DNA of 64,000 nucleotides, taken from NCBI GenBank assembly GCA_963920765.1, contig OY987249.1:17084483-17148482 (forward strand). The letters run 5' to 3'. This document shows, piece by piece, positions 14,401-49,337 of the stretch (its first letter is position 1; each line of letters opens with the position of its first letter). The notes beneath the pieces were generated by a model. The model ran no database searches, was not told where the DNA came from, and saw only the letters and a list, made by a program, of their open reading frames with translations. The stretch comes from Ulota crispa (Eukaryota > Streptophyta > Bryopsida > Orthotrichales > Orthotrichaceae). The position numbers and the translations under genes were made by a program.

Positions 14401-17400
14401 CAATTTTTGGTCCAAGGGTATCTCTGAAATTTCTGAAAAAGCAGGGGTATCTATGAAATTATTGCAAACTTCAGGGGTATCCACGAAATTTTCCCTCATA
14501 TTAAACATGAAAATTTGTTTCTTCTAGAATAATAGACTTCAACATAAAGATACTGCTTTTAACACGTGTCCCTCTTTGAACAACATAGGTTACTATATTT
14601 TCAAATCCTTGAATACTCTCTCCCCTTAAGGTAGAGACAATAAACTGACACGTCAAGTTCCTTGAAAATTTGAGTACCTGGAAATATACGCTGCTTGAAG
14701 AGAGCATGCAAAACTGAATACTAGACTGCAGAGATAAACGAGGAGAGCCACTGCCCCGTTCGCAAATAGATAACAAGTGAGTGAAACTCCCAAAAAACTG
14801 CTCAATGCCGGCTTCCTTTCTGTTCCGAAAACAGCAATGGAAAAGTACACCAATAGCGGCCCCACCGTTACAGCAAAGAATGAGACAGGAAGTCTAAAGT
14901 TAGCCTCCATGCAGGAAATGAAGGACGGGACAGTGTTGTCCACTTCCCATGCTCGTGCTTGCCTCATCAGAGCAAACAAGACCACTGCAATAGAGAGCCC
15001 AGCTACCTGCACAATAGAAAAAAAACAAACACATTCTCATATCTGATAGATGCCATTTCTTTGCTCTTGACAGTACATAAGGTACGAGCACCCATAAACG
15101 TCAAACTAAGGGTTTTGAACAGGATGACTACTAATAAACAACTAGCAAATTATAGGATCCTATTAGGAACAGAAAAAAATGAGTTTGCACTTTCGAATGT
15201 ATTATTTGGATATTGTGAGAATAAGTTGTGACTTTTTAAAGAGCAAACTGCCATTGCACCCATAACCACTTTTAAGATTTCATGTTCACATGTTGTACAT
15301 CCTTGTCATTATATCTATTCACTTCCACAGATTTTCCAAGATTTCAGACGTGACGGTTATGGGGACACTAACGCTTATGGGTGTTCCTACCTTAGACATT
15401 TCAAGAGCTGCATGTATCTCCATATCAACAAGGCGTTAAAGAATAGATTGCCTCGGAAAAGAACAACGAAAAGAATTGCTTGTGTAGTCCGAATAAAGCA
15501 CCTGTAATCCGTGAACAAGAAGAAGGCGGCTTGCTGAAGTAAACAATGACACAGTCACAGTAATATCATAAACACAATGAGGGTCTACCTGAAAAAGACA
15601 CAGTTGACATCAATTAAAAATATATCTCCAGGAGTTCCAAGTCACTCAAAAGGAGAACAAGAAGCAATGCACGTCATTGAAAATCTGCCAAACGCATCTG
15701 AAAGTAATAAGCATCAGTCTACATGCGCAGAGGACAAGCGTACCAAGAGAAGAATAGTGGTATGCTCGGATCCATAACCGGAGCCCCACGTGGCAGGAGA
15801 GGAGTCAACCGCAATAACTTGGGACGTGAGATTAGGGTAGACTTCCAGACCGTATGGAGGATCCCAAACCACAGCAACTGGTGGAAAACAGCGCGATTTA
15901 CAGAGTTCTGGTTTCGTAATAAAAACTATTAGCATTGACCCTTAAAGGCTTCTAAAAGTGCAATGAAAACTGCAAGAAGGATCATGGCAAAATAAAAATA
16001 AACAACTTTAAGTGGACTTTGTGGTAAGCGACAGCTTACTCAATATATCCCCAGGCTCTGGATGCTCTTTTGCAAGGCCTTCAGGCTTCACTCCACAGCT
16101 CACTGTCTTCACGTCCAGGTGAATTGGCAGAGTACTTAAAGAGACCGCAATTGGGACTTGCCACACCATTGGATGGTATTCCCACAGCCAAATCCCCTGC
16201 AAAAATGAAGACATTATAGACCCCATCTAAATGGTACTCAAAAGCAACCTATCCTCAAATTTCCCATTATAAAAACTATAGATGTAGTGTCTAGGCAAAG
16301 TGGAAAAGATGCTTTCTCATCTTTAAACAAAACAGACAAAATAACAACAGGAAAGTACAATGACAGTAACTTAGGATTTGGCACAGAAGGACATACCTGT
16401 CGTTTGTAAAACGAGGTTAAAAGCCATGACGTAGATAGAGGTGTCTTCCCTTGATTGGGGTTGTAGAAATGAGCCACTACCATGGTCACGACAGCAGGGG
16501 CGCTTCCAACGACAGCCTGCAAGTAATAAGTCAGCACAAGCCTGAAATCGGACAACTTGTCAATGAAGGACACGTTAGAGGAAACTAATGTCAGACCATG
16601 AATAATAGAGCAGCAGAACACACACATACCGGCAAAGGAGCAATCGAGATTGTTAAGTATCTGAATCCTTTCATCTCGCTGGGGCTCAACTGCAGCAATC
16701 CCGTAGGTGAGACCTGCTCTGGCGTTCCTCCTGGTTCTGGCTGCACATCCATGTCAAGCTTTCAGCATTTCCTAAACCCTAACCCCTAACCCTCAAACAT
16801 ATAGCAAAAAAGATTGCAATCAAGAAAACACAAACCTGAGGTGGAGTAGGACCAGAAGGAATCTGCACCATCTTCATTGTCACCTCTACTACCCTAAACA
16901 CTAAACCCTAAACCCTCAAACACATAGCAAAAAAATTGCAAGCAAGAAAACACAAACCTGAGGTGGAGTAGGACCAGAAGGAATCTGCACCATCTTCATT
17001 GTCACTTCTACAACACGCTCAGAGGCTGGTACCTCAGCAGACCGGCTATCATCAGGCCACAGGTGCACCCGCAACCCTACACATGGGGACAAGTTTGTTA
17101 CGAGAACAAACCATCCATGGTTGTCCTGGCGTGCCTGTCCGAAAATAACTCAAAAATCAGCAACTCCAAGTCCTCAATTGATATCAGAACAGAAAAATCA
17201 AAAAAAAGGAAGAAGAAAAAAAAATGCGAAAACAGATTCTTTCGGTCATGCAACAAAAGCACAAACACAAAAAGGATCTATGAAATCTTATCACTATGAT
17301 TTAAGAAGCTGTAGACATCGAACATGTGAGAGCATACCAGTTTCTCAATATCCATCCACCGTCGTTTTCCATCCATGGACAAAACATTCATAATGGGTGA

Positions 17401-20400
17401 TTGAACATGGATGTCATCGGCCACATCATTCTCCCAATGGGTGCTGGAAGGACAATTAAGTGGAGCTCCATTTATAGCTTGAATTCCTAGTTTACTTGAA
17501 ATTTGACCCTGAGCCTTCAAGTCTTCTGAATGCTTCTTGTTGTAAGGTAGTAGGTTTAATGCTTGAGGAAGTGCACTGCGCAAGTTGGACACAAAAACTC
17601 CTAGCTTCGTGTGTGGATTTGAGTACTGTTGGCCGGTGCTCTTGTCTATCAATTGAAGCAATGTTTGGGCCACCTGTGAGTCCAAAAATCATATAAGGTA
17701 GCAACACCCATAACCATCACTGTATCCATAACCATCACCTCTAAAATCTTGGAAAATCTGTGGAAGTGAATGGATGTAATTACAAGGATGCACAACATGT
17801 GAACCTGAAACCTTAGTGTTGGTATTAGGTGCAATTGCAGTCGGCTCTTTAAAAACTCACAACTTATTCTCACAGTATCCAAATAATACATTTGAAAGTG
17901 CAATCTCATCATTTTTCTCTTGCTAATAGGACCCTATAATTTGCTAGATGTTTATTAATAATCATCATGTTCAAAACCCTTAATTTGACGGTTGTGGGTG
18001 TTGCAATCTTATATAAAAATGGGCAGCTATTAGAGACTCCACAATCAGAGTTTTGTGTTGATTAAGACAACTAACGGAGAAGGAAAACTTGAAATACCTG
18101 AACCATCATCTGGTTGCACCAGAGAATGTTCTGATGATCCATGGACATCCAGATTTTCATCATTCCTGCTGTATCAACTGTCAGCCCGTGTGTCGGAGGC
18201 ACAATGCCATCCAGCGATGCCATTCGAGACCGAACCTGAGGCCAGCACAAGAAAAGATTCAGCATCCAAAACCCTCCTGGTCCCAAAAAGACAACAACAA
18301 CTACTGTAGGGAAAAATAATGCAGTACCTGATAATCACGAGCCCCTCCAGTTATAGAAACCACCACCACTTTTGACAATGCAGGCTCTTCACCTTTGACA
18401 GATTTGTATCCACGGATCCAAGCATTGTTCACACGAGTGAAAAAATGTCCAAACGATGGTTGCACGGCCAGTGGTGGCGATCTGATAGCATCAGCAATAA
18501 GAAAATGTAGAAAATATAAAGTTTGAGCATAAAAAATATATCCCTTTTCGCTGTCCTGAAAATATGATTCCATGGACATGACAGAAGCAGATCCATTAGC
18601 TTAAGCATGGACAGAAAAGACACTGACCTGTGTGGGCTAGAAAGGGTAAGCACAGTCTCCACTGCACCTTTTCTTAAACCTGGATGGACGACAGCTGCTC
18701 GTGCTACAAATCCTCCCATGGAATGTCCCACCAAAATGACACTAGTAGGCAAAACCTTGCCTTTGTTTTCATTATGCTGTGCCCGCTTCTCGAATGAATC
18801 CTTGAACCTATCTAAGATCTGCAAACCAGCAACAACAACCGACATATCAAAACCCGAGAAAGTAAAAAAAATCCTAACTTCATACCTCTACTAAGACTCA
18901 CTAACTCTCACTAACTAACTTGCAACGATATTACGTTCATTTCCACCAATTCACTTCTCCCCAAACTAATTGTGCTAATAAGAATGGTTTGAAGTACTAA
19001 ATCCACGAGCACCAACCATAGAGTAACAGTGTCCTAACTAACTTAACAGTCTCACTCTCCATATCTACCTTGCAAATGCAGGCACACATTGAAACAACTT
19101 CTGAGTAGCTAATCGACCGGTAGTCAAAGTTGCTAGAAAGTACTCCCTCTGCCCCTCTAAACAGCTCCAAATCAAGCACATTTCTTGTATCACTAAAAAG
19201 CTCCACTTTGCTGATTTCAAGTTCAAAGATCTCATGAGGGCAAGTTAAGCAATTAGAGAGCATTCTTCTCTTAGCAAGCTTGGTTTTGCCCATATGAGGT
19301 ATCATTGTTGCTACTAATTGTTGAATCATCAATAATAAGGAGCTGACAGCATGCACAAATAAAATATGGTGCTTTTTGCATGGAATTTGGGTGCCCATCA
19401 AAACTGGAGATTTTGCATACATTTGGTAGATGGTATATTGATTCTAAAATGCATGTGTCACTAGCACAAAGACTAAAAACAGAGCTAATCCTTCACAAGG
19501 AAGCTTTTTGGACGTTTTTAGACGGACAGAGGGAGTAAGAATCATGAGCAAGAAATAAGGCAAACCAATACACAAGGGATTGCATTTTTTTTACCCTATG
19601 AACTGCTCCGACAACATAGTCGGCGTGTTGCTCCAGAATCCAGCCATCCATTGCCGAATGCTCGCCTTCTAAATCTACGGTGAACCAATCCAAATGGTTT
19701 GAATATTTCCCTTCTTTGACACCAGCTGGTAATTCCCCAGTGTCGAATCCCTCGGGACCGGATTCAAGCGGAGTAAACGAGGACAGCTGGTAGTAATACC
19801 CCTCCACAGGTCCTTCATTGAAAGCTCGGTCCGAGACTGCAGCCACTGATCGCACCTGGCAGATCAAACAGTTTTACACTCGGAATCATCACTCAACACA
19901 TAAGGTAGAAGCACCCAACCAAAAGTGACACTCATTTCAGATGTGGTAATTTGGAGGGTCTATCGAGAATCTAATGACATGGGGGTTGTTAGGAAATGGG
20001 TACAGATGCCAGCAAAATTGTTTTTGCAAATTTCTGAGATCGTATGAATAAATTACAAATTGTTGGAGGTAACTCCTTAGATAGATTGACCTATTGTGGA
20101 CACTAGACCCCTGAAAAGCAACAACAAAAAGATCATGTCACATCCAATCATAACCCGCCGCCACCTACACAATTTCTGTTCCCTTATGTTAACTAGCCTG
20201 TCTGGTTTGAGTACTTGCGTGTCTTGTTTGTTTAAATGCAGGAGCGCTTGGATTTAGGTTTATTTCTAGATGCCACTACACGGCTAGTGTCACTTTTGGG
20301 TGCTTCTACCTTAATCCTCCATTGCACAGATCCTTTTACACGAAGCCCTACCTCCCACCTAATTTCAAATTCAAATATACTAAACCCCGCCAATTCTCAA

Positions 20401-22929: not shown

Positions 22930-24187
22930 TAGTACGCTCTAGAACCGTCACTTGAAGGGCTAGTCTGCTTTTTCATGGGCTTTTCAATGGAGAGAGATTT
23001 TTTGTCTGACTTTTAAACAAAGAAAAATGGATTTTAACCCTTAAATGCCATGGCTGATGTTTTTCGTCCACCAGCTTCAAAAAAACCATATGCAGCATAG
23101 ATGGTAAGTTGTTTTCATTTGATTCTCACTACAAGGAAAAGGCCTTTTTATGACTAGGGCACTATGACTGTGTAGTCATATTTGGGTGAAATGAGCAATC
23201 CACCAGTCATGTGGTTTTGAGCTCCTAGTCGTAGTCATGCTCTAGTCATAACATTGTCAATGTGACTAAGATTTTTTGTGGACCTCAAGGGGAACGTCAT
23301 TGGGAACAAGTTCTTAGGATTTAGTGAGTGGTTATGACTAGGTTTCTTGACTACATGACTACCTCTAGTCATATAATTTTTTGGGTGAGGGAGGGCCCAA
23401 GCCACATTGGGTTTAGGGACCTTGTAATTTAGGGCTTTTCATTTATTTATTGGGTTTAGAGTGGGCGGTTTAGGGAGTGGAGGTGGGGTTAGGGGTCGTC
23501 TGGTTTAGGGACAACATTATGTGCATGTTTGGTTTATGCGTTACGGTATTGTACACATTGAAAATCTATGAGGTTTTGGGGTGTTCAAGGTTTAGGGGTT
23601 TAGTGTCTTTAGATTTCATCAAGTTTAGGGTTCAGGGGTCTTATCTTCTCAGGGTTCAAGAATATAGGGTTTAGGGAGTATTTTGTATGGTTATTCACAT
23701 GAGTTTATACTTAAAGCTTGCTTGTCATCTATGGGTTGCATCCTATGGAATATTGACATTTGATTGATTTCCATTTACAACCTTTTACTTTCTCCCTCTA
23801 CTTGTCATAAATTTATTTCTTGCTACTCACAATGCTGGTTTGCTATGTAATATCTATAAGCTCAAGGGCCCATTACATACATCTTGTAGAGCTCATCTCA
23901 ACGCTATGTTCTTGCTGCAAAAGAGGGTTTGGGTTTAGCAAACCAGGTGCGGCCCAAGTTGTTGGGTTTAGTAATGGGAAATGATACAACGTACACATGT
24001 GTGAAAAATCCTTTCTTGGGGGAAAAATCCGGAAAAACCCGGTGGGGGAAGAAAATTGGATGTACCTAACAGGAACTGAGTACGTGTACGTTCCTAATTT
24101 CATGTGAAGTGTTACATGGGGTTGTAACCATGTTCTTGCTATGGCAATATGATTGCAAGCCCATGTAAATCATCTTGAAGTGCCTTG

Positions 24188-27100
24188 TCATTGGTGAATG
24201 GCTTGTTCATAGACGCTGTCAACGTCCTCTTTTTGCGCTTTGTTGCCTCCTTCATCAAAATTGCTTGCATCCCCCCTTCCTTTTTCAGCTCCCACTTCTT
24301 CATCCTCTTCTTCAATATCTATTGTAGCTGCCATCTTTGCTCTCACTTCCTTGTTTGTTAAAACCCTGCCTCCCGCCAAAGGGTTTGCACTAGTGCATGG
24401 CTGATGCATCTGTTCCTCTTGCGTTGTCCTTCCAAGGGCACCGCCATCACCAATGTTCAAGTGTTGAACTTCCTGGCTGTCATTCCCTACGGCCCCTATT
24501 CTCATGCCTCTAGGCTCTGTATGCAAAACCACCTTCCACCTTGCATTGCCCAAATCATTTAAAAAAAACCTGACGTGCATGCAAGGGAAATGCAAATGTA
24601 TATGCAGAGCGGAGAATGAGACTCTCAAACCTCACTATGGTAAACCCATACGCGTCCTTCTTCATTGTTGCATTAGAGCCTTGCGTGCTCGATTCCACCC
24701 ACAAGCAATCCAACACATTGATCTGAAAATAGCTGTAGTTGATGCCAAAAATTTGGTCTACCTACCAGATGTACTCCAAATTTGCAGTTCTCATATTCTG
24801 GTCTCTGCTGCTTGATCTGCACAACTAAAAAAAAGTGGCTGCTATGCCGCTGTCACATGTACTTAGATCTGCTTCTACAGATTGCGTTCAGATGTGGTTC
24901 CCATATGCGTACATGGCACAATATGACTTTGCATATGTGGACGGTGGCTTTGTTAACGCTCGGATGTCCACATGCACTTCTTTTTGTGCTTGTATTTTCA
25001 ACTCCACTGCGTGAGCCAACCATGATCTAAACATGCCTTCCTCCATGCCTACAGGATGTGGGGTGGCCCTCCGCCAATTTTCTCGCCGATGTTGCGCTCT
25101 TGCTATTCCTTGTGCTGCCATGTTCTGCACGTACTCACTAATATTCCACGCACTAAATTCAGTTAGTATGTTTGTTTTGCATTGACATTTTGAAAAGGGT
25201 TACTCCTAGTATTAGCAATGACAATTACATTCAAACTTGACTTCAAAGGAGCTATTTCCTTTGAAGCGGAAAGCAAATGAAGAGGGGGTCACAGGGCATA
25301 TGACTGCGTACAGTCATATAGGGGTAGTCATGAGTACAAAAATTGGACCCTCTGACTAGGGTGATGACTACAGGCAGTAGTATGACAATCACTAGTCATA
25401 GTCTAGGTTTATCCTTCACTACATGTAGTGAATGCCCTACTACAAGTCCTCAAATACAAAAATTCATGATTTAGGTATATAAGTGTTTCATCATTTTACA
25501 AAACTTTGAAGGTGCAATATAGACTTGGATATAATTGTAGGTGTTTGTAAACACATGCAAGCATGAAATCACTTACTTCCTAAACAATTGGAGAGGCTTT
25601 GCGTTCTCCAGCACAAACTTGTGGATCCAATCCCGCATTGATGGGCTCAAGATTATGCGCCATCTGTTTCCTTCCAGCCTCTTGCTATTCATTGCAAGCT
25701 CTTCTTTGTCATCCCAAACTCTTCGTTTTGTGGCGCTGCTGTTCTACATGTACTCCGTGCAAAATCCCAATGCCTCCTCCGTACTATACTCACGCGCCAT
25801 GGAACCTTCAAGTTGGGCTCGTTGTTTCACATAGCCCTTCAAGACTTTCAAATACCGTTCCACATGATACATCCACCTCGTGTGAACCAGTCCGCATATA
25901 TCCAATTCCTGTACCAAGTGGATCGGTAAGTGCATCATGATGTCAAAGAGCGCCGATGGAAATACTTTCTCTAGTATGCACATCGCTTCACCGGTCTCCT
26001 CCAACAACGCTAGCATCAACAAAGGGTCTACAAATTTTGCGCATAGCTGCACAAATATGCGACTCACTTTCATAATGGCCAATCTGACATCTCCATTCAG
26101 CAACGTCCTCACGCATAATGGCAATATTTGTTGCAGTAGAATGTGATGGTCATGAGATTTCAAGCCCCTTAACTCTCCATTCATGGTGACTCTTTTTGCC
26201 AACTACCTAATGTAATTTGTTGGCGTCTTCAAGATTTGCAAGATACCTAGGAATGTATTCTTCTCAACCTTAGTCAGTACGTACGGTGCAGTTGGTAACA
26301 CCATCGATCCAGGTGCCCTCCCCGGCACTGGGTGAAGATGAGGCCTAATCCTAGCTTTTTGCATCTCCAAACAAACCTTCAAAGTGTCCTTGGATCCCCA
26401 TATGGTCTTCAATATATTCTCACACAACTTCTTCTTGTAGTGCATAGGGTCCAGCATGTGTCATATCAAAAGACCCTGTTGAGGCAACTATGTCTCATTA
26501 GTACCACCATGTGGTACAATCGCAAAGACATTATGTAGTAAGGTTCAAGCAACGTATCCAACATGACACTTTTTTTAGATTCAAACCTTAGACAATTGTC
26601 ATATGCATAAACATCGTTTAGTCATCCACGTAACTTACAATTCTCAAATAAATTATCCTTTACAATGAGCACTATCATTGCTTATGGGTTTAGGGTTTAT
26701 GGTCATTTGGATGGAGTACATGTATTTAGGTAGTCATATCATCCATACAATTGACTCTTTGTAGTCATGCTATCCAAAACTATGACTCTTAGTAGTCATT
26801 ATCTTTAGGGATATGACTACAGCAAGTCACTAAGTGATTTTCCAGTCATTTCCACAACAATGCTACGCGGTCTAGTCACTTGCATATATTGTTAGCACTT
26901 GAGGCAGTCATAATCTATAATTTTATGATTGTCACTAGTCAGCCAAGTTTTGTACTTCCTCATTGATGGTGACACTCTTGTAGATGCATAAGTTGCTGTT
27001 CCTCTCCATATGCCACAAGTGAACTATTAACATGATGACATGTTAAAGCAAAAGGTGTATTGTGCACTTATTATACATCATCATCTTCAACAATGTGGTC

Positions 27101-29340
27101 AAGAATTAGCTCCCAATATGGAAGACGGTAGAAGGCTATCAACTGTTTCACATCGGTGGTATGAACCGGGTCACCTGGTGCATTTGGTTTGTTTAGGGTT
27201 GATGCCCTAAACCAATCACTCCTTTGCAGTGCATACTTCTTAATGTTAGCGCTTGTCATGGCCTTCGAGAGTAACTCTGCCTCCACAGTTCCATTGAAAT
27301 CCCATCTCATACCCCGGTACGGATGCCTTCTTCTAAGGTACCTGCTTTGGGAGATCAATCATTCTAAACTCAAAGTGTACAGCTTAGTGAATAAGAAATT
27401 CCATCTGAGGTTGCAGATTTGACATACTACATTTGATGTCACTGTATTCTAATACAAGCGGCTATGCAAAGCATTTTTTCTTTACCATACGTTTTTTTGT
27501 AACTTCACTCTTTTTGTCTCTAAGCAGAGTTATATTATAGATGAGATACATTCTACCAATGTATTCCTATTCAATTCATTCTTCAAAAACAAATCCTCAT
27601 TCTATGGTTTATAGATGTACATGCTAAGATCCATGACACTCATTAATAACCATACAAAATATATGACCATTGTCCTAGTAGCAATTGTTATGGACCAATT
27701 TCAAATACCTCCCCATTATTGGTCATGTATTTAAATCAATTTAAATAAAAGAGCAACAAGCAAGACTTTGAATCTCCACAACTCTTATTTTTCTAGGCTA
27801 TTTAATTAGGGTAAATTAACTCATACTAACCAATGCTTTTAGATGCTTTGAGTTGAATATACTATAATATATGTTATTCTATGAATCTTACAGTAATTAT
27901 ACATATTACATAAACAATTTCCTCCTTCACTTCAATGGTCTTTTAGTTCATAAACATTGTATTCCATAAGACATGGGCTAGTAATCTCTCCACTAGTACC
28001 TCCGATGCCCTAGGTATACATTTTTTGCAAGGGCGGTAGATCTTCAACTCCTCATGCTAGGTTCGCACTCTGGGCAACCTGTACCCCTTTGTGACTTACC
28101 CTGATGCTAGCCCATAAGCTGGGAAATAGTGGATGCACCACATGAGTATAGCTCAAACTGAAAAGTCCTTGTTTGAACCAACAATGTATGTGTCTTTCGC
28201 CTCAACGCCCTTCCATTGATCCGCTAGTTCCTCCAGCAACGGCGCCAAATAGACATCAATGTTGCTAGATGCAACACTTTCCTTCCCCAAGATTATGAGT
28301 GACAACATCAAGAAGAACCTCTTCATCACTAACTATGGGGGCAAGTTATAGTTCAATAATATGACCGGCTAGGTTGAGTGACTAAGCGACATGTTCAAGA
28401 ATGGATTCACACCATCCAATGCTAATCCAAGCCTAATGTTTCTTGGCTCCACTGCAAACTCTGGGTACATGGTGTCTATGTGCCTCTAGGCTTTTGAATC
28501 TGGCACGCACTCCACATTGCTCCCCTCCTTTGTATGAGTGGCATGCCATGTACACAATTCAGCCAATTTCTTGCACCGATACATGCGTCGCAATTGAGGG
28601 ATGAGTGGAAAATGACGAAGAACCTTCCTGAGACGTCCAGGCTTGCCTATGACATATCTAGGTTCTCCACACGCCAGGTACTCCACTGCATCTTTCAACC
28701 CCAGTCAAAACAAACAACAACCATTTTTGCAAGAATGGATGGAGACATAGGAGAGTCCTAGTTTGGACAAATACCGCATTGCTTCATAAAGCAATTTAGG
28801 TAAGGTGTTGTTCTCAAGAAGTAGCTCTTTCAACAGTTTCAAGAGTTTGTTTGCACATGCATGGGAAACTCCAAAGACTGAGAAATAGTTCAAGAGCAAG
28901 AGGGTGGTCACCAGATGATTTGACTTTGAACTTGCGTATAAGGGAATCCTGGATTGTTCAAATAGATCCTCCGCGTCTTTGGCCTCCTCACTTGTACCCA
29001 TGCTCTCTTGCATTGCCTCATCTTCTAGCTCCATTGCACATTCTGGATCATTGCAGTTGATATCATCCTTGTGATGTGGAAGATTATCAAAGTGTTGAAA
29101 ACACTTTGCAATCATTCACATTGCGTCCACTTCATCTAAGCCATTCGCATCTGAATTGCCAAGCAACTCAATTCCCTCACTGGTGACACCATTAACAACG
29201 TCATCCCCAACCTCTAGAGTGGCATGTTCATCCAAAATTATATTGGTGAAGATTGTTCCACATATCAAAATTGTGAACATTGACAATAGGGTGTACTTGC
29301 ATATTTGTTTAGTACATATACATTTATATACTACCCACAA
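24188..29340 (-). pseudogene. Decayed TNP2-type CACTA transposase
   Basis: Homologous pieces appear in family order along the minus strand. 29115-28705 is the TNP2 N-terminal part (IPLYASSKSNHLVTTLLLL, LGLSYVSIHSCKNGC). 28698-28486 contains CGEPRY and FPLIPQLRRMY. About 28470-27960 contains NIRLGLALDGVNPF and YNLPP. 27358-27071 contains RRRHPYRGMRWDFNGTVEAE and FYRLPYWELILDH. 26457-26203 contains KLCENILKTIWGSKDT. 26202-25744 contains LRGLKSHDHHILLQQILP and RWMYHVERYLKVLKGYVKQ. 24628-24188 contains the C-terminal NARWKVVLHTEPR. Several in-frame stops interrupt it, for example just before 29115, after the GCCLF block near 28705, and two or more near 28330-28380. It is not functional. Introns contain TGACTA/TAGTCA clusters. 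Confidence 0.9.
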
Positions 29341-29777
29341 GTCATAGGCATTTTCCTAACCAATAGGGCTATGCAAATTTGCAATGAAACCACAATCATT
29401 GAGAAATTCTAGATCTATTATTGCTTAATCCAATAGTCAATGCAAGTCTAATAAACTACATAGAGAACAAAAAAAATCATTCTTTCTCCTCAACTCCCCC
29501 ACAATGTTACCATTTTAAAGAACTCTGTGAAAATATGCTCATAGTTATGACTAGAGTCAGTCATGTCATTTGGCAAATATGACTAGTACATGAGTCTATT
29601 ATCCACTTAATATGACTGAGTGTAGTCACATAAATTTCAAAATTTGACTACGGTGAGTCACTTCTTAGTTGAAGCAATGATTGTTTGCAGTCATGTTCTA
29701 CAAAGGCTTTTGCAAATTATCATGCAAAGAGGGAAAAACTCCAAACACAAATAATTTCCTAAACCCTCCACATCTAA

Positions 29778-30380
29778 TCAATTTATAGCGTAGTGCGCAA
29801 ATAGCTCCTCCCCACTAGCAATGTCCTGGGATGCTATGGTCATTGTGTATTCCCATTCGGACGTGTTCCAAGGCCTTGGCAATTCTGCATACTCCCAAAT
29901 GACATTGCTAATGTCCCCACGTCCCATGGAACTATTGATGAATCCAGCTACATTGCCATGTTCTACATCCCCATCTTGGTACACACTAGCTATAGGTTGC
30001 ATGGCATAGCATACAAATTGTGGATCCAAAGCTTGCATGATCCTAAACTTGGACCGGGTCAACAATTGCCCCACAAACAGTAACAACTCCTCCCCTGCCT
30101 TTGCAGCACCCACGGTATAGAGACTCCATCCCATGAATGGAAATGTAGATACTTTCACTATCCACTCCCAGTTCCAATACGTGAAAGGTGTTAGTCTTGG
30201 AATGCGAGAGGGGCCCCATTCCTTGTCAAGATAGCTAGGTTTCCAATTCACCAATTGTAACTCTTGACTTGTTAAGTTGCTGCGGGTGATGGAACATTGT
30301 CCAACAGTACAAATTTTAAGCAAATCATCCAATGCTGCCTTAGTTGCTACCTGTACACGAATGTCTTTGAGAACGTACAA
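29778..30380 (-). CDS. SET-domain (lysine methyltransferase-like) open frame inside the CACTA element
   Basis: A 200-codon uninterrupted frame. Residues about 80-198 form a SET domain: MGWSLYTVGAAKAGEELLLF with VGQLL (SET-N, compare G-x-G-L-F and E-Y-x-G-E), GNVAGFINSS at 142-151 (the R-F-I-N-H-S-C position), and DIASGEELFAHYA at 186-198 (the G-E-E-L-x-x-D-Y position, with the catalytic tyrosine position kept as Y197). Deviations are GWS for GxG and NSSM for NHSC, so activity is doubtful. No ATG precedes the SET core; a good acceptor (GTGTACAG, before 30352) suggests splicing to an upstream exon, plausibly 30417-30689. The frame ends in a stop 660 bp before the TNP2 homology. It is the longest open frame in the transposon. 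Methylation target unknown; histone or protein lysine is an inference from the family. Confidence 0.75.
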   Translation of the reverse strand: MYVLKDIRVQVATKAALDDLLKICTVGQCSITRSNLTSQELQLVNWKPSYLDKEWGPSRIPRLTPFTYWNWEWIVKVSTFPFMGWSLYTVGAAKAGEELLLFVGQLLTRSKFRIMQALDPQFVCYAMQPIASVYQDGDVEHGNVAGFINSSMGRGDISNVIWEYAELPRPWNTSEWEYTMTIASQDIASGEELFAHYAIN

Positions 30381-30416
30381 AATCTAAACTACAATACTCA
30401 AAGTTGGCATAAAGAC

Positions 30417-30689
30417 TTAGGTAACAAATGCTAATGGAGAAGCAATGAATGCAACGCATGGAAGTGGCATGTACCAAGATGGATTTTCAAAGAATGGGTC
30501 ACGTTGATAGTCATGAAGGTGCTTGCGTATAGTATTTCGCCCTTGGATTGTCCCATCCATGCACCCTTTGCAAGGACAAGGGTATCTTGGGAGGTTTCTG
30601 CAGTCCGCTTGTTCCTCTTCAGTTCTCCATAACTCCAAGTCCTCTTCTAGTACATGATCCATTGATGATGCCCAGACTTTCTCATACAA
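30417..30689 (-). CDS. Transposase-associated N-terminal domain exon
   Basis: Contains CPCKGC, NTIRKHL and FFENPSWY, matching the zinc-finger-like domain that starts many plant CACTA transposases (CPC-x2-C, IR-x-HL, x-Y-x-x-W). It normally lies directly upstream of TNP2. Here the SET frame sits between the two. The exact exon limits and the splice to the next exon are unresolved. Confidence 0.6.
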   Translation of the reverse strand: MYEKVWASSMDHVLEEDLELWRTEEEQADCRNLPRYPCPCKGCMDGTIQGRNTIRKHLHDYQRDPFFENPSWYMPLPCVAFIASPLAFVT

Positions 30690-30999
30690 TTATAAAAAAA
30701 GGAACTATTAGTAAGGCACATACTATAGCAAGTAAATTCTAATATGAAGGGACTGTATGTCACTTTGTAGTGTGTACAACAAGACACAGTGGACAGTGGC
30801 AATAATAGTTTGTGACTACACACAATCAATCTTGACCATGTGCAATCATCTATTATTTTATTTTCATCCATTTGACTATACATAGTCACAAATTAACTAT
30901 TTACAATTTTGCATGACTAGCTAAAGTCATATTGCATTATCTTCACACTCTTTGGGGTTATCACAAACATAGGTCTCAATACATATTTGAGGCATACTG

Positions 31000-33400
31000 T
31001 TGGGCTCATTTCTTTGTTATTTGTATTGAAAGCTTTAGTGTTTCCTTAAAATTTATCCTGAACTCTTACAAATAATACATAAATATTGGTTTGATACCCC
31101 TCCCTTTGTAAGACGATTTCAATTCATTGCGTTGTTTCAAGGGAACAGTCACTCCATGCTAATAAGGTTCATTAGGTTGGACCCCTCTCCTATAACTTTG
31201 GTTAAACTCTTAAATGCCTAAAGCCTTCTTTAGCGGTTTTAGGGATTTTCATGAAACCAATCATACAACCAAGTGTTTCATAAAAAATATCATGTTTTTT
31301 CAAATTTTGTTCATGTTATTAAATTTAAGTTTAACATGTTCTAGGTTCCATGGAAAAGAAAAGCACACCAATATGGCTTGCTGTTCAAACATGATACTCC
31401 CTTCACACGAAATTCTTAGAATTGCTAAGGTTACTTTGCCTATTCCAATCCTCAGTTCACATGTCAAATCTAGGAAGTCTGTCATTGACAAAATCATAGG
31501 TTCTAGCTCATGACATGTCTAACTTTAATCAATTCATGGTTTTCAAAAGGTACCATTATAAAAAAATTTCCCAATTTCTAACATGGATTTCTCTCCAAGG
31601 TCTACTGCATTTAAGACTCAATTTCAATTTCATTTAGTATTAGGAAACTTAAGGTTGCCATGCAAACCATGGTCTAAATTTTTTAATAAAAGAATATTTA
31701 AGGTTCATTTTCAAACTCGGATTCTAGGCTTTCAAGATACCGTTCAGTGCAAACTTCTATTTGAAAATTGACATTGAAAATTATGCTTTTGTGAGGTTCA
31801 CTAAACTTCAATTTTTGGAAAACACCCACTTTGGGTGACTTTCAGTAGTTACGTGTTCAAACTTGTAATTCAAAGGATTTAGGGTCACATCTTTACACAT
31901 GTACATGAAGCACTTAGAATTGTAGGCATGGAATGTATAACATACAATACAATCAGTCTGAATTTAGGTTGTACCTAGGGTGGGCCGCATGCACAAGAAG
32001 ACAGAGGCGAGGAACATCACTCACATCAACTAAGCTCCCCAACATGCCTCCATACAGCCTATAGCAGCCAAATCTCAAAAGTTTGTCACTATCAACAATA
32101 CAAATATGCAGTCATGGCAAACCTCACTTTAATGATTTTAGGGCTTCTAGAAGCCAATAGTATATATATTTCAAATATTTAACAATGTCGGTTTCTATCC
32201 AAGATCTATTGCCTTTAATGCTCAATTTCAAAATCTTCCAACATCAAGAAACTGAAATTTCTTTTATAGACTGTTCTACAAAAATTTTAATAGGCAATTA
32301 TAATCCATATTTGCTTTAATAGAACCTGTAATTTTTGATTCTCAAAATAACCTTTAATGCTAACTTTTATTAGAAAATAAGAGCTACATGTTATGATTTG
32401 ATGAGGTTTAATTCAACTTCAAAATTTTGTACACATGCACCTTTGGTACCTTTGGGCATTTGGGGGTTAATAAGGCCTGTAATTCAGAGACTTTGGGGTT
32501 AGCTTTTCTTGTGTGGACAAGACACCTTCAAACTAGATGAAGGCATTGAATGATAGCTTCTCCCGTGTAGACAAGACTCACTCAAACTAGATGAAGGCAT
32601 TGAATGACATGGAACGCAACCAACGGGAAAAGAGGGAGCACCTAGAAAGGCGGGCCACGCCGGCAAGTAGCGACTGAGTCTCTAGAATGCCACCCGCACC
32701 AATTGAGCTCCCAAGTGTGTTTGACGCCACTTGCTCCAGTCAAATCTCAGAAGTTTGTATTTAGCAACAATATATGACTAAAGTCATGACATGTCTAACT
32801 TTAATGAATTTAGGGCTTCTAATTAATTAGAATAGCATGGCCGTTTTATGACTGCAAGTTATGATTATTGAGAGTCATGTATACCTCAAAATGACTCATG
32901 CTAGTCATAACCCAAAGTCATAAAATGCCCATTCTGTTGTTCTTATAAGAACTTTTACAATATGTTGCTTCAGATAATTTCCAATGTAGATTTCTATGAA
33001 AGATGTAGTGCTATTAGGGCTCAATTTCAATATCATCCATCATCTAGAAAGTCAAGATTGAAGTGGAGACCATTCTACAAAATGCTGAACAGACAATAAT
33101 CCATATTCATTTTCAACTCAAATTAGTGAATCTCTAATAAACCTTCCTTCCAAAATTGGATTAAAACCTACAAACTAGTTATTGTTATGATTTGATGATA
33201 TTTAATCCACTTCAAAATTTTGTATAAATTCACCTTTTGCACCTTAGGGCATTTGCAGGTTAATAAGGCCCGTAATTGAAAGACTTTGGGGTTGGTTTTT
33301 CCCGTACGTACAAGACGCACTCATACTAGATGAAGGCATGGAATGACATAGAATGCAATGGGAAAAGAAGAGGCACTTGTGGGGTGGGCCACACAGGCAA
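31000..33400. repeat. CACTA interior: AT-rich repeats, no gene
   Basis: Holds at least three diverged, roughly parallel copies of a sequence related to the 50224-50864 element (around 31560-31900, 32150-32480 and 33000-33270). Each contains a stretch like TGATTTGATGAGG-TTTAA and a GGGCATTTG-like end. TGACTA motifs cluster at 32770-32930. No coding exon recognised. Confidence 0.45.
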
Positions 33401-33466
33401 GGAGCAACTGAGTCCTTGGAATGCCACTCTCAAGAGCCGAGTTCCTGATCTCAACCGTGTTGCACC

Positions 33467-34440
33467 ATGTTGCGCCATCACACGCTACAGAAACTTGCGC
33501 ACTTGAAGGAAGCTGGACTTCTGCAACCAAGCACGGAGAGGGTTGTGAAAGAGGTGAGGCAATTGAGAGTCATTGCAAAGATTTCTAGGTTTAGGGGTGA
33601 TTTTACCCTAATTTTTGCTACCCGTTGGGATTGGCCTTTATTTCTTCCTTGATTTGGATGGCGTTTTGCATTGGGCTCAGTGCCGAGATTCTGTGTTTGT
33701 GTGCAGGGTGGATTGCAATTGGATGCATGTGGACTTTGAGGCTGAGGGACGCAGGGCTGCCAAGCCGTAGAGCCAAGGAGCCGAGAAGCTGGATCCTGGG
33801 TCTCTTAGTTGGTACTAGTACGAGATCTAGTTGGAATCTAGCTCAAGCAGATTAGTGGAGTGAGGCATAGTCTTGAAGCTTGGTGTAGCGGCGTACAATT
33901 TTCAAGCTGGCTAATCTTGCTGAGCTCGGGGAGACCTCCATCTATGAACAACTTCGCAACGCCAACATTCAATGTAACTAGGAGAAGTTGAGAGAATTAG
34001 GGTTGCCCAGATTAGGGGAGCAAATAGGAAGCGGTGGACGTCAACGCCCAAAACGTCCTGGCCCTCTCAATTGCACACTATAGGTCCAATTTCTCTCAAT
34101 CAATGACTTCTCCGTTAGAATCATTGTTTACAGCTATAGCAAACCTAGAGGACAGTGATATAGTACAAATCTTCCAAAGAATTGCTCTCCTTCCACCTAT
34201 TACTGCAATCATTTTGCACAAGATTGGAGTGACTTTAGCTAATGACGTAGTTGAAGCTTCTAAGATTGAAGGAGGACTGCCACCACGAAGGAGTTCCAGA
34301 ATCCAGCTCCAAGTAGAACACAACGCTCTAGAAAATAAGCCTCTTGCACTAGGAAGCAAGGTATGCATATGTCTATCACTCGATTCCATTGGATTTCTTT
34401 GTGAAGCCTTGAAATGTAGTCCTCACTGTCGTTTGTGAGA
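33467..34440 (+). pseudogene. Decayed coding segment in CACTA, unassigned plant motif
   Basis: A possible first exon reads MLRHHTLQKLAHLKEAGLL, followed by a GTGAGG donor. At 33904-34071 the frame reads LAELGETSIYEQLRNANIQ, then after a stop EKLRELGLPRLGEQIG. Further on (about 34265) is LPPRRSSRIQLQV. The pattern Y-E-x-L-R-x-x-x-I-x-x-N-x-x-x-L-x-x-L-G-L followed by R-R-S-S-R is one I associate with uncharacterised plant proteins, some transposon-linked. It may be a captured host fragment or the 5' part of the TNPA gene. In-frame stops show decay. Confidence 0.4.
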
Positions 34441-34502
34441 AGCTTGGAGGTGGAGTCTGGTTTTTTTATTTTATTTGGAAGTGTTGTGAGGCAAGGCCAT
34501 TG

Positions 34503-36310
34503 AGGCTCTCATTTTCTGTGTTTTTGGAGTGCTGGTCAATCAATTGGCTCACAAAGGGGCAGATGGTGCTTTTTTTAAAATTTTGAAGTTACTATGAGGG
34601 CAAGGCCCATTGAGGCTCTCATTTTCTATGTTTTCAGAGTGTTGGTCAATCAAGGGGCTCACAAGGGGCAAATGTTGCTTTTTTGTTTAAAATTTGGAAG
34701 TTGCTCTGAGGTTTGGCCCATCGAGACTCTCATTTTTCTTTGTTTTCAGAATCTAGTTGATCAAGGGGCTCACAAGGGGCAGATTGTTGCTTTTCTGTTT
34801 AAAATTTGGAAGTTGCAGTGAGATTTGGGTCATTGAGGCTTTCATTTTTCTTTGTTTTTGAAGTCTAGTCGATCAAGGTGCTCACAATGGGGCAGATGTT
34901 GCTTTTAAAAAAAAATTGGATGTGCTCTGAGGTTTGACCATCAAGGCTTTAATTTTCTATGTTTTGAGAGTCTAATCCATAAATTGGCTCACAAGGGGCA
35001 GATTGTTGCTTTTTTGTTTTAAATTTGGAAGTTGCAATGAGACAAGGCCATCAAGGCTCTCATTTTCTGTGCTCTCCGAGTGCTGGTTGATTAAGGGGCT
35101 CACAAAGAGGCAGATGTTGCTTTTTTGTTTAATATTTGGAAGTGCTGTGAGGCATGGCCCTTTGTGGCTCTCATTTCTGTGTTTTTCGGGTGCTGGTCCA
35201 TCAATTGGCTCATAAGAGGGCAAATGGTGCTTTTTTTTAAAAAAAATTGCAAGTTGCTGTGAGGCATGACCCTTCATGGCTCTCATTTTCTGTGTTTTTG
35301 AAGTGCTGGTCTATCAAGGGGCTCACAAGGGGGCAGCAGGTGTTTTAAAAAAAAAAACTAGAAGTGTTGTGGCCCATCGAGGCTCTCATTTTTGTGTTCT
35401 CATAGTCTAGTCCATGAATTGGCTCACAAGGGGGTAGCAAGTGTGTTTTAAAAAAAAAAATTGGAAGTGCTGTGAGGCAAGGCCATCGAGGCTCTCATTT
35501 TCTGTGCTCTCCAAGAGCTTGTTGATTAAGGGGCTCACAAAGGGGCAGATGTTGCTTTTTTGTTTAATATTTGGAAGTGCTGTGAGGCATGGCCCTTCGT
35601 GGCTCTCATTTCTGTGTTTTTGGAGTGTTGGTCCATCAATTGGCTTACAAGGGGGCAAATGGTGCTTTTTTAAAAAAAATTTGCAAGTTGCTGTGAGGCA
35701 TGGCCCTTTGTGGCTCTCATTTTGTGTTTTCAGAGTCTAATCAATGAAGGGTTCACAAGGGGCAGCGGTTGTTTTTTTTTTAAATTTGGAAGTGCTGTGA
35801 GGCAAGGCCCATTGAGGCTTTCATTTTCTGTGTTTTTGGAGTGCTATTCTATCAAGGGGCTCACAAACGGGCAGCGAGTGTTTTCAAAAAAAAAATTGAA
35901 AGTGCTGTGAGGTAAGGCCCATGGAGGCTCTCATTTTCTGTGTTCTCATATTCTAGTTGATCAAGGGGCTCACAAAGGGGCAGCGAGTGTGTTTTTTAAA
36001 AAAAAATTGGAAGTGCTGTAAGGCAAGGCCCATCAAGGCTCTCATTTTCTGTGTTTTTGGAGTGCTAGTCCATCAATTGGCTCATAAGGGGATAGATGGT
36101 GTTTTTTTTTTTAGAATTTGGAAGTGTTGTGAGGACAAGGCCATCGATGCTCTCATTTTTTGTGTTTTCAGAGTGCTGGTCAATCAAGGGGCTCACAAGG
36201 GATAGCGAGTGTTTTTTTTTTAAAATTTGGAAATTGCTGTGGAGGGCAAGGCTCATGGATGCCCTTTTTTCAGTTTTTGTAGTTGCTAGTCCATCCTAGG
36301 GGCTTAGGGG
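34503..36310 (+). repeat. Minisatellite of about 17 units, period about 110 bp
   Basis: Units start near GGCTCTCATTTTCTGTG, continue through AAGGGGCTCACAAGGGGCAG, then a T-run or A-run and TTGGAAGTGCTGTGAGGCAA. Unit starts were seen about every 103-113 bp. The internal homopolymer switches between T-rich and A-rich versions among units. Confidence 0.9.
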
Positions 36311-36439
36311 TGGGATGGATTCTTTGTTCTTCAAGTTGGCATTGAAGTCATAGAGAATTGACTATTGCGGGGCCATGTTCATTATTGACAATGGGATTTC
36401 CGTGAATGGTATTACTTGGTGCAAGAGCGCTGCTGTCTT

Positions 36440-36660
36440 GAGTAGGTGTAGTCATTGATTCATTTTGGCTAGTCTTTTGACTAAGTGTAGTCTTTGATTC
36501 ATTTAGGCTAGTCATTGATTCATTTAGGCTAGTCATATGATTGGCCGTAGTCATTAATTCACTTCAAAGGGCAGTCATATGACTTGTTGTAGTCATTCCT
36601 TCATTTTGGCCACCAACTTTTGGACTATGGTTAGTCACATATGTAGGTTGCTTAAACATT
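36440..36660. repeat. Internal cluster of TGACTA/TAGTCA motifs
   Basis: About ten TAGTCA or TGACTA hexamers lie in 220 bp, upstream of the TNPA-like gene. Similar internal clusters are at 26700-26960, 29540-29700, 30800-30930, 32770-32930 and 38300-38600. Confidence 0.8.
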
Positions 36661-36834
36661 TGCTGACCTCCTACAGTCAATATTTAGGCATGCTGCACTG
36701 ATTTTGTTGGATTGCTTTGTCTAAAGCCTAAACCATTTGATATCTTGTCACATTAAGGGAATTGTATTTAAAAAGCTTGTGTGTAGAGGTCATCTAAGTT
36801 TCTAAGTAGGACGTTGCAGGGGACGCCGAAGAAG

Positions 36835-39447
36835 ATGGGTGACAATGAGGTGGACGAGGAGTTCAACTACGTTCAGGAGGGCATGGGGTAAGCTCAGCCG
36901 GCAATTGCTCACTAGGTGTTTCAAGACAAGCCCTTCCCGAAAGAGGAGCCTGTGGAGGTGGAGCTGCAGGACCCGGATTCCCTGGACCTTGACATGCAAT
37001 TGTTGCAAAAGCAATTAGAGATTTTGCAAAAGTAAAATTTGCTATAGCAATGTAGAGCGCAGCAGAGGGCTCTATTGATTGGGGGAGGAAGCATGCAGCT
37101 TCTTGGAGGAGATCAACGAAGAAAGAGGCCTAAGGCCTTGAAGGCCCAAATGGACCAAGCCGCGCAGCAAGAGACTGCCATTGACCTTTGCAACATTAGT
37201 AGAGGTTGACGCAAATGGGGTACCCAAAGGTGACAATTGTTCTAGGTGGCTTCAATGCCTTAAGGGTCATACCCAGGATATTGATTTCAGTGTGAATAAG
37301 TATGACCATCATAGTAAGGGCATGTTGTTGGCGGTGAAAGACCGCGTGGGTAGCACCCTTGACTACATGGGTGGATTAGGCCGCGTCTTAGACGAAACTT
37401 TTAACTTTGAGCTGAAGGAGCAGCTCAAGACCAAAAGGTACCAAATAAAGAGGCACATGCTAGCGGGTTACAAGATGCCTGAGTTGGTGCAAGCAGACCA
37501 TTGGGCCAACCTTTGCAACCTTGTTGAGAGCAAGAGGAAGATTCAGGAAGCCAACAGGCTAAAAGCTTCCTGCTCTATGGTACAGACTCCTTTGACTAGA
37601 GGGCGCACAAAGGACCTTGATAAGCACCTTGTTCACTTCATTGTCTTGGTCTTGAAAATGTTTGTGGAACTTGCCTAGTATGGCTTGTATGTCTGAAAAT
37701 TGTATGAATATTGTGCATGAACTCTTTCTACCAAGTTCTTTAACTCATTACATGGTTTTTATCATTGTAGGCCAAAATTTGGAGAGGCATTCCACGCCCC
37801 TTGAAGTGGAATTTCAAATGGCACAATAGAAGGGGAAGGGCAAGGGTAAGGCAAGGCGTATGGCTAGCTTGAAGCTTTCTGAGGTGTTGTCTGGCGCTAG
37901 CATGCAGGCCAAAATGTCACCGCCGAGCTTCATGTCTAGTTACCCACCTAACAAAGACGTGGATGCGCGATTGACTAGGGTGGAGACTTCCGTGAATGAT
38001 ATCAAGGATATCTTGAAGGAGATGAACTCATCTCGTCGAAAGGACCCCAAACCCGCAAAGTCTACAGTAGGGAGTTCAAGCAGGAGCGGCAAAGAGGAGG
38101 AGCCAGAGAAACCACCTTCTATCGTGAACCTTGACTCTAGTGACGTCCCTATCTCCAAGGTGAGATTGGGTTTTGGGAGAACCGGTTTTATTTTTGTTTG
38201 CATTCAACATTGAATTGCTTTAAAGTTTAGGGGTTTGCACCTATTGCATTTCACGTAGATGCCAATAGCAATAAGGTTCTATGTGCATATGTTCCATTTC
38301 AGTCACGTTGGAGTGCGTATAACTAAGAATAGTCATCTGATTGATGTATATGACGATTGATAGTCCACAAAAGATGACTACAAGTAGTGATTGCAATTGT
38401 AGTCACATTTGTAACTACTATGTTTATTTTTAGTCATAGGTTTAGGTACATGACTAGAGGTAGTCAAAGGCAGGAGTCATGGTTGAGTACATATAGTCAT
38501 TTTTATGTTTCTGTAACATGACTATTGGTCTTTAGGTGGAACTAGATGATGACTCAACACAGTCATATCTTATTATTGTGTGACTAAGTCAAGTCATTTC
38601 AACAAAACAAATGTGAATTCCAACCATGTGCACACTTGTTTGGTATGTACTCTTGATCTTTGCTTCATGTAACCTTCCATTGAATGGTTTCAAACAAACA
38701 GCTGAAGCTATAATCAAACCACTAAGGTTGTCGCTTTGGAGGCAATAGAGGAATAGAGGTACGTGCAGAAGACCCATCTCAGCGGAGAAGGTGACAAGGG
38801 TGGTTCCCCAAGGAGGAAGCAAGTGGATACAATTAGTAGCAACAGTGGGGTACCATTGCAAAAGAAGCTCCACATCACAGAGATTGAGAAACTTTGCTAG
38901 GACAACGGTGGCGCGCCGTAGGTTATAGTGCAGAAGACCGGCGCGGCAAAGGGTGCAGGCTAGAAGGATGCAGGCCAGAAGGGCAAACGGGACAGCGCTG
39001 CTAGCTAGAAGAAAGGGAAAGAGTCTTTGCCTGTCTAGACTGTAGCCAAGAAAGTGGTGCCAAAGTACACACCTAGTGGCCATGAGATTTAAGATATCCC
39101 ACCAAATTCACTAGTTGTTCCAGGAAAGGCTAAGATCTTCCACATAGTTGTTCCCATAGTGGGATTTGTGTATGAGATCTTCAGTTACAAAAGTGGGCAA
39201 AGAGGGCAAGATAGTTGCTATGAGAACAATGCACAAAGACGAAGGCAAGCTCTTGCACGGTAAAAATGTACCCCTTCAGCACGTAGCATTGGCTATAACT
39301 CAAAGCTTTGACAATAGCTTTAAGTTGTATGAGCATGTCACCTTAAATGACCCCCCGGTGGAAACCATAGGTGCTGCCATTAGGCAATTTGTGATTTGGC
39401 ATGTTTGCTTCATATACCTTGCGCTCACGCCCAAGGAGGTAGCTTAG
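36835..39447 (+). pseudogene. Decayed TNPA-like (Transposase_24-type) gene of the CACTA element
   Basis: The possible start is the ATG at 36835 (MGDNEVDEEFNYVQEG). The best part is 37181-37678, with KMPELVQADHWANLCNLVES followed by KRKIQEANRLK and a TRGRTK block; this resembles the W-x-x-L...K-x-Q-x-x-x-N-R-x-K...G-R-T-S pattern of plant TNPA-type proteins. 37860-38160 is a charged, coiled-coil-like segment (TRVETSVNDIKDILKEM). 39160-39447 ends with VPLQHVALAITQSFDNSFKL and PVETIGAAIRQFVIWH, similar to the C-terminal region often seen with this family. Stops occur in the 5' part (36890-37080) and around 38880-39060. In the family, such proteins bind the subterminal repeats. Confidence 0.7.
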
Positions 39448-39539
39448 AGTTTAGGCTTTACTTGTATGTGAAAGCCTCTCACTTTGTGTTACTTCATTAT
39501 TATAATGAATTAACCACCCTTTCCCCTTGAATATGAATT

Positions 39540-40527
39540 TATAACTAGTGTTAGTCACTTCAATGCATACAAGTAGTGTCATATGTTCGGCAATAGTCAC
39601 TACAATGTAAAGATATGGCTACATGTAGTCAATACTGCAAACCTGTCTTGCCATGTTTCTCATATGTGACTACCTAGAGTAATACCCATGCAATTGTCTA
39701 AACCCTTTTAAAGAGTCCCTACGACTGCACATAATCATCTATGGATCTAAACTTCACTATCTTTAGTCATAACCTAAACCCCAAAATCAACAAAATGCAC
39801 TTCTAAACATTGCCAAAAAATGTTTAAATGACTGTCGGTAGTCATAACATGACTCAACTATGACTATATGTAGTCATAGTTGTTGAGACTAAACCCCCTC
39901 AACCCATGCATAATTTGGCCGAGAATGACTAAGCTTAGTTTTTACTAGAACCCCATAATGACTATCCATAGTTATATGGCCCTAAACCACATCTCTACCC
40001 AATTATAGTCATAAATTTTGCCCTCATGACTAGTATTAGTCACAATCAATACAAATCTGACTAGTGTAAGTCACCCTAAACCATACATTTAATTAAACCC
40101 CTAAACTCTCCTAAACTTGACTAGAACAAGTCATCATGTAATCCAAAATGACTTACTACAATCATTGATCCACCCTTAAAAACATTAAAATTGATGACTA
40201 AAGAGAGTGAAACTATCACCTAAACCATTAGATATGACTCCGTGTAGTCGTAGGTTATGACCGTAGATAGTCATATCAGTCAGAGAACATGACTACGCAG
40301 AGTCACAAGATTGAGAACCCCATGCCAAGTCTCCATTGAGGTCCCTAAACTCCATTGGGAACATCACATTGGGAACAACTGATCCACCCAAATGACTGCC
40401 AGTCATTTGTACATATGACTTGACCGGGATGACTACAACATGACTGTAGAGAGTCTAGTCAACTCCTGGTTTTTATGACTTCTTGGAGTCAAAAACCTAG
40501 TCATAAAAAGGCCTTTTCTTTGTAGTG
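39540..40527. repeat. Right subterminal repeat region of the CACTA element
   Basis: Dozens of TGACTA and TAGTCA hexamers, often as inverted pairs a few bases apart (TGACTAnnnTAGTCA-like), fill nearly 1 kb. The left counterpart is about 23145-23370 with fewer copies. In En/Spm-type elements such motifs bind TNPA. Confidence 0.9.

Positions 40528-44753: not shown

Positions 44754-49337
<4,584 letters not shown>

Follow-up and report, generated by a model that had tools for sequence, protein, structure and literature searches.

How does a SET domain come to lie in the transposase gene region of a CACTA transposon, and what could it do there? Plants silence transposons via histone and DNA methylation. 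In a 64,000-nucleotide stretch of the Ulota crispa genome (contig OY987249.1; hereafter the window), a sequence-only reading had pointed out a frame of about 200 codons with a SET-like domain between a transposase-associated (TA) domain and TNP2 homology. It had proposed capture of a host SET exon or a domesticated fragment still under constraint, in a layout that it did not know from described plant CACTA families. Here, the frame, the element around it and their relatives across the genome were compared.

A SET domain within a complete but decayed CACTA element

ORF inspection of the window bore out the frame, which comprises 201 codons on the minus strand (29778-30383) with no ATG ahead of the SET core. 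A search against SET profiles gave a significant match to Pfam SET (PF00856), scoring 23.4 bits against a curated cut-off of 22.4 (E=8.1e-5) and covering profile positions 1-104 of 105. The same profile was matched by 12 of 15 aligned copies (E up to 0.01; best 4.6e-10). Profiles built on PDB structures that matched were those of SET methyltransferases, namely MLL1 (5.3e-5), ASH1L (5.8e-5) and Set1 (6.5e-5), followed by SETD2 (0.003), NSD2 (0.012), EZH2 (0.046) and ATXR5 (0.084). A single-sequence search of the PDB gave no match, structure prediction from the window sequence alone was uninformative (mean pLDDT 32), and in NCBIfam two of three proteins matched one SET-bearing model, both below its cut-off. 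Judged by profile similarity, the SET domain in the window is real. The coding segment proved somewhat shorter than the frame as first delimited: with bounds set against relatives, the SET exon spans 29778-30350 on the minus strand, 190 codons plus stop, behind a CAG/GTA acceptor.

Scans for CACTA-type ends identified an element of 17,401 bp (23127-40527), with its transposase gene on the minus strand and terminal inverted repeats (TIRs; 23127-23158, plus strand, and 40496-40527, minus strand) matching at 31 of 32 nt. The terminal sequence begins CACTACAA, and the TSD TCT flanks both ends. The pair 23127/40527 was the sole one to pass the CACTA-type end scan; a scan of the whole window returned four pairs, among which it ranked first and alone had a TSD. 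Raw counts of the subterminal motifs TAGTCA/TGACTA peaked near both element ends, with some inside as well. Because the TIRs and the TSD TCT at 23127/40527 enclose SET, the CACTA setting first proposed for it stands, and by its ends the window element is a complete but decayed 17.4-kb CACTA holding SET.

Downstream of the SET stop, a spacer with TAGTCA/TGACTA motifs (29224-29777, minus strand) leads to the TNP2 transposase exon or exons and DUF4218 (25744-29223, minus strand), which were recognized with Pfam and contain many stops. Within this stretch, a Transposase_21 fragment at 27071-27358(-) scored 17 bits (E=0.0036), below the cut-off, and DUF4218 was clear at 25744-26202(-) (E=7.2e-28). 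Broken open frames on the opposite strand to the transposase gene (36806-39447, plus strand) are a possible second gene; the frames tried gave no Pfam match, and part of this region is matched in copy L015, in which window 36547-37892 has an 83.5% match. A tandem array of 16.8 copies of a 111-bp unit also lies inside the element (34462-36304). Elsewhere in the window, two inverted pairs whose ends resemble CACT (matching at 19 and 18 of 20 bases; ca. 5.2 and 5.5 kb; no matching TSDs) were found in 12443-17900 and are perhaps another transposon, and a perfect GA run of 112 units occupies 46758-46981.

SET-bearing relatives in the genome

The genome searched comprised 275 Mb in 157 contigs. The window SET frame had 71 matches, itself included, which merged into 58 loci. 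In 15 of 20 loci fetched, tblastn with pieces of the window found TA, SET, TNP2 and DUF4218 on one strand and in the same order, which is kept even in L026 and L027, where SET is 46 and 43% identical to that of the window, respectively. TNP2 and DUF4218 were absent within the fetched 10 kb of L014, L015, L024 and L025, and L028 gave no TA match by tblastn, yet its TA end was visible in the donor comparison described below. A genome search for Transposase_21, in which 150 of 596 candidates were scored, placed a TNP2 match above the cut-off within 6 kb of 23 of the 58 SET loci, in all 23 on the same strand and with SET 0.7-2.3 kb upstream. L014 (C11:3919642, minus strand) and L015 (C11:3950980, plus strand) have equal SET match scores and are oppositely oriented, with 31 kb between them, and sequence like window 30833 onward repeats inverted in both beside the equivalent of 29190. 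TNP2 matches C11:4792734 and C11:4803556, 11 kb apart, are likewise in opposite orientation; both pairs are maybe large inverted duplications.

A second search, its query being TNP2 taken from a SET-bearing element, scored 150 of 481 candidates, of which 56 (the 51 best and five lower down) were checked for SET. SET was found upstream within 5 kb in 42 of these, and at 20-25 kb in two more; the other 12, some at 49-52% identity, had no match in the list obtained with the window SET. Each of the best 37, the query included, was preceded on its own strand by SET, in 35 cases within 5 kb, and from rank 38 downward SET-bearing and SET-less rows were mixed. One SET-less TNP2, C7:12868749 (52% identity), may reflect loss of SET. 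The layout is therefore carried by related CACTA copies, as the 58 SET loci and these 37 closest TNP2 relatives attest.

The reading that an unrelated SET-bearing element had inserted secondarily into the window CACTA was rejected on this shared position and is scarcely credible: nothing but the mosaic look of the window speaks for it, and copies scattered over many contigs have SET at the equivalent place and in the same orientation. The sequence-only reading had named related copies that lack SET at clean boundaries as the sign of such an insertion. This sign was not seen: the three SET-less elements that were read (L057, L058 and L059) are more distant and of another build, TA continuing into the acidic linker of TNP2 with no intron. 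Its frame is open in L057, interrupted by a single stop in L058 and shifted once in L059. The span from TA to TNP2 is 0.73-0.85 kb in six SET-less elements (out of ten TA matches), as against ca. 1.9-2.4 kb in SET-bearing L012, L021 and L026.

Pairwise distances of SET and TNP2 were strongly correlated (Mantel r=0.93, 17 copies; none of 9999 permutations reached r), and the SET and TNP2 trees, which carry no support values, both recover the deep and middle groups. At the level of the copies compared, SET has diverged together with TNP2. Since the distances correlate and the trees share groups, one SET acquisition followed by shared descent is the simplest reading of these alignments.

Exon layout and splice signals

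The TA exon (transposase-associated, CPCKGC...KHL) lies at 30475-30662 on the minus strand; it opens with an ATG (30662), and its donor, TTG/GTACAT, is at 30475/30474. The frame in which a TA domain had been seen, 30417-30689(-), gave a weak match to Transpos_assoc (PF13963; 18.9 bits, cut-off 27.7, E=0.0017) but recurs at the equivalent place in relatives, and its bounds were redrawn to those of the exon. The window copy is without one base that relatives have near the donor; its TA frame is thereby shifted close to its end, and for this reason the splice site is hidden there. The intron between TA and SET (30351-30474, minus strand; GT...CAG) is 124 nt long, which is not a multiple of three, so that reading on from TA without splicing would enter SET out of frame. 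In-frame stops within this intron occur only in the shifted frame of the window.

Of the 37 copies, 26 have a TA frame that closes with DPxxxxSIL or the like and is followed by an in-frame GT at phase 0, in a donor search that favoured GT where several ends suited its pattern. AT replaces the donor GT in three copies (L013, L022 and L044). Among the remaining eight, the donor was mislocated in L016, none was found in L017 and L054, and the window, L021, L023, L027 and L052 have a GGTA site that is ambiguous or lies out of frame. At the SET exon, a [CT]AG acceptor at phase 0 was present in 6 of the 11 close rows with an aligned exon start; the AG is lost in close copies L013-L017, and L019 is misaligned. 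The acceptor is kept at phase 0 in five of six middle copies and lost in L025. Deep copies offered candidates read by eye as phase 0, CAG/ACGGTAACC in L026 and GTAG/GTAACTAAG in L028, and their acceptors were less clear than the TA donors. Wherever both signals survive, donor and acceptor phases agree. Past its last Tyr region, SET terminates at a stop in all but three (L011, L018 and L023) of the 37 copies; of these 34 stops, 33 were scored by script and that of L013 by eye. The TNP2 exon starts near 29223, where the window has AT at the position of the acceptor AG; this AG is intact, by eye, in 7 of 10 close copies, and the acceptor is at phase 0 in L021 and L026.

The comparison of copies thus establishes an exon order, a pattern of splice signals and phases, and a recurrent stop. 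With a phase-0 TA donor and in-frame acceptors at both SET and TNP2, TA can join either in frame, and as SET occupies a terminal exon of its own that ends in a recurrent stop, it would belong to a second product sharing the TA exon and not to the transposase. Splicing of SET to the upstream TA, judged probable at the outset, fits these signals, and we infer that both forms, TA-SET and TA-TNP2, are used. Alternatively, the element could carry SET as a gene in its own right, with a promoter and start distinct from those of TA and beside TA by position only. A later ATG could serve as such a start; however, the window frame opens into the SET core without one, and a gene independent of TA would leave the phase agreement between TA donors and SET acceptors unaccounted for. 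We hold this alternative to be improbable.

Origin of SET and selection acting on it

When a SET from a deep copy was used as query, all 68 of its genome matches coincided with matches of the window SET, and neither query matched any of 51 other loci in the genome that match the SET profile. A profile of the family, run against eight of these 51, gave no match under default filtering and, once filters were disabled, no score above 10.4 bits. Nor did any of the 51 have one of the 150 scored TNP2 matches within 6 kb. In viral contigs, 15 pattern matches were obtained and none was confirmed. As both queries led to the same loci and to none of the 51 others, no host donor was seen. The source of SET is probably old. 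Capture of a host exon by the window element itself, as first suggested, finds no support in these results: SET is a trait of this CACTA group that has diverged with TNP2. A second repeated SET set (L032, L035 and L036) was considered as further members of the family and set aside as SUVR/SUVH-like by eye. Loci of this type read GNVARFINHR, and many match only about the first 68 to 79 profile positions and frequently contain a stop; they may derive by duplication and decay from a host methyltransferase of the H3K9 type, or have an intron past that point.

Selection was assessed on pairs of SET cores, skipping codons with stops and omitting L015 and L018 from the close group and L044, L045, L050, L051, L054, L055 and L056 from the deep one. 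Between close and middle copies, differences at codon positions 1, 2 and 3 were 0.207, 0.167 and 0.454, and the median omega was 0.148 (60 pairs); for TNP2, the corresponding differences were 0.219, 0.177 and 0.497 (40 pairs). Omega was 0.152 among deep copies (66 pairs, 31 with saturated dS), 0.197 between close and deep (120 pairs, 32 saturated) and 0.190 between middle and deep (72 pairs, 28 saturated). Given non-independent pairs and saturation of deep dS, the contrast between codon positions is the more reliable guide. Across these comparisons SET has been under purifying selection between clades (median omega 0.15-0.20), much like TNP2.

Within the close clade the picture differed from that between clades. 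There omega was 0.50 (45 pairs), the codon positions differed by 0.109, 0.087 and 0.124, and the non-coding spacer of ca. 500 nt differed by 9.6% (0.096; 28 pairs, 8 copies). Given this omega and a SET difference close to that of the spacer, the close copies appear to decay almost neutrally, and SET is no outlier among them. The stretches compared were free of stops in only four of the 37 copies (the window, L011, L041 and L042), and the open SET frame of the window copy alone is no evidence for present constraint. The suggestion of a domesticated fragment still under constraint was therefore not borne out for the window copy, which decays like its close relatives; conservation holds between clades and not within the close one.

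The same data bear on the possibility that SET is a functionless passenger, a host-gene fragment of the Pack-CACTA type. Arabidopsis Pack-CACTA elements do take up host DNA, according to the available text of PMC8616336. Purifying selection between clades and co-divergence with TNP2 led us to reject this origin for SET, which also shows a recurrent stop and splice signals and for which the genome SET searches found no host donor; we regard it as very improbable.

Residues of the SET domain and its possible activity

An active SET lysine methyltransferase has N-H-S at motif III, catalytic Tyr residues, and a post-SET region or a substitute for it. Among 37 rows, the Tyr of YxMQ is present in 35, the Asn of FINSS in 33 and the final Tyr in 34, and the His of NHS in none, being replaced by Ser in 32 and by Asn in 5. 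The Tyr residues are the presumed catalytic ones. A post-SET region is absent, as the frame stops right after the final Tyr region. With the motif III His replaced in 37 of 37 copies and no post-SET, the activity of SET may be lost, and a dead SET is possible on these alignments. The match to MLL/ASH1-type SET domains would suit an activating mark, and is too weak to decide.

Two readings of the TA-SET product follow. We put at about 0.6 the probability that this clade makes a TA-SET protein besides TA-TNP2 and that TA-SET acts on the chromatin of the element. More specifically, and tentatively, at somewhat less than even odds, the element would encode a self-targeted chromatin enzyme, TA being spliced to one of two partners, a SET methyltransferase or TNP2, with the former product rewriting the chromatin of copies and the latter moving them. 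The phase-0 donor of the TA exon would join the SET acceptor to give a short TA-SET protein ending right after SET, or the TNP2 acceptor, skipping SET, to yield the ordinary TA-TNP2 transposase. Through TA, TA-SET would reach element DNA, at the terminal repeats or the TAGTCA subterminal repeats, where SET would act as a lysine methyltransferase on histones or some other protein, setting the element's own chromatin. The most plausible effect would be to keep the element transcribed or cuttable despite host silencing. DNA binding by TA, catalysis by SET, its substrate and the direction of the effect are all presumed in this scheme.

The second reading, which we consider rather unlikely, is that a catalytically dead SET fold has been kept for binding and that the short TA-SET protein is a regulator (a repressor, an activator or a transposition accessory) that would compete for TA binding sites or recruit host factors. 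It would account for the missing NHS His and for a stop that leaves no room for a post-SET, and has a precedent in SET-24 of C. elegans, as given in the available text of PMC12886896. Retention of both Tyr and of the Asn in most copies argues against it, as does selection between clades about as strong as on TNP2. SET has been carried beside the transposase, apparently as an alternative last exon, long enough for the two to diverge jointly. A SET kept under selection and able to be spliced to TA suggests that certain transposons are themselves writers of chromatin marks. Since the layout supplies a defined protein (TA-SET) and a likely target (the element ends), and SET-less relatives within this genome can serve as controls, editing of an element's own chromatin becomes directly testable.

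Comparison with known systems

The family shares CACTA TIRs, a 3-bp TSD, subterminal repeats and TNP2 with CACTA/EnSpm elements such as maize En/Spm and soybean Tgmt. In the portion available of PMC2613891, the single En/Spm locus is spliced into the DNA-binding TnpA and the TNP2-type TnpD, so that there, as here, one locus can encode both a long transposase and, by splicing, a short product presumed to bind DNA; unlike in En/Spm, the short product here would be TA-SET. The terms 'SET domain', 'methyltransferase' and 'histone' are absent from the accessible text of PMC2613891 and of PMC4158355, on CACTA transposase structure. TnpA activates Spm in correlation with demethylation (PMC10398659, in the text at hand), and by analogy TA-SET may act on the chromatin of its own element.

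The SET domains of MLL1, ASH1L, Set1, SETD2 and ATXR5/6 resemble that of the CACTA elements by profile (E 5e-5 to ca. 0.1), and the latter differs in its replaced NHS His and absent post-SET. VANDAL VANC and Spm TnpA are not known to be SET proteins. They are a functional parallel only, as element-coded proteins acting on their own silencing in what is available of PMC10398659. In SETMAR/Metnase of primates, a SET domain is likewise joined to a DNA-binding protein derived from a transposon, Hsmar1 (PMC9062482, available portion). SETMAR is a single host gene, in which a mariner transposase copy was fused to SET, whereas the present case is a mobile, many-copy TNP2 family that keeps its SET.

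In a brown alga, giant EnSpm elements and a Sola-1 transposon gene with a DNA methyltransferase domain are described in PMC12477816, whose accessible text mentions no SET domain for these elements, and that of PMC8616336 names SET only for host-transposase fusions and SUVH2/9. A CACTA TA-SET-TNP2 layout was not found described in the literature searched; Repbase Reports and most subscription journals, which lay outside it, may contain one. In the literature examined, as far as its text was available, SET genes on DNA transposons were reported only in PMC12730594, which cites Kojima and Jurka (2014) for SET genes in HarbingerS and MuDR families of Phytophthora. These are close counterparts, each by its description a DNA transposon with a SET methyltransferase gene. 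They belong to other transposase superfamilies and other hosts, the window transposase being of the TNP2/DUF4218 and not of the Harbinger type, and the present family extends the carriage of SET from oomycete Harbinger and MuDR transposons to CACTA elements.
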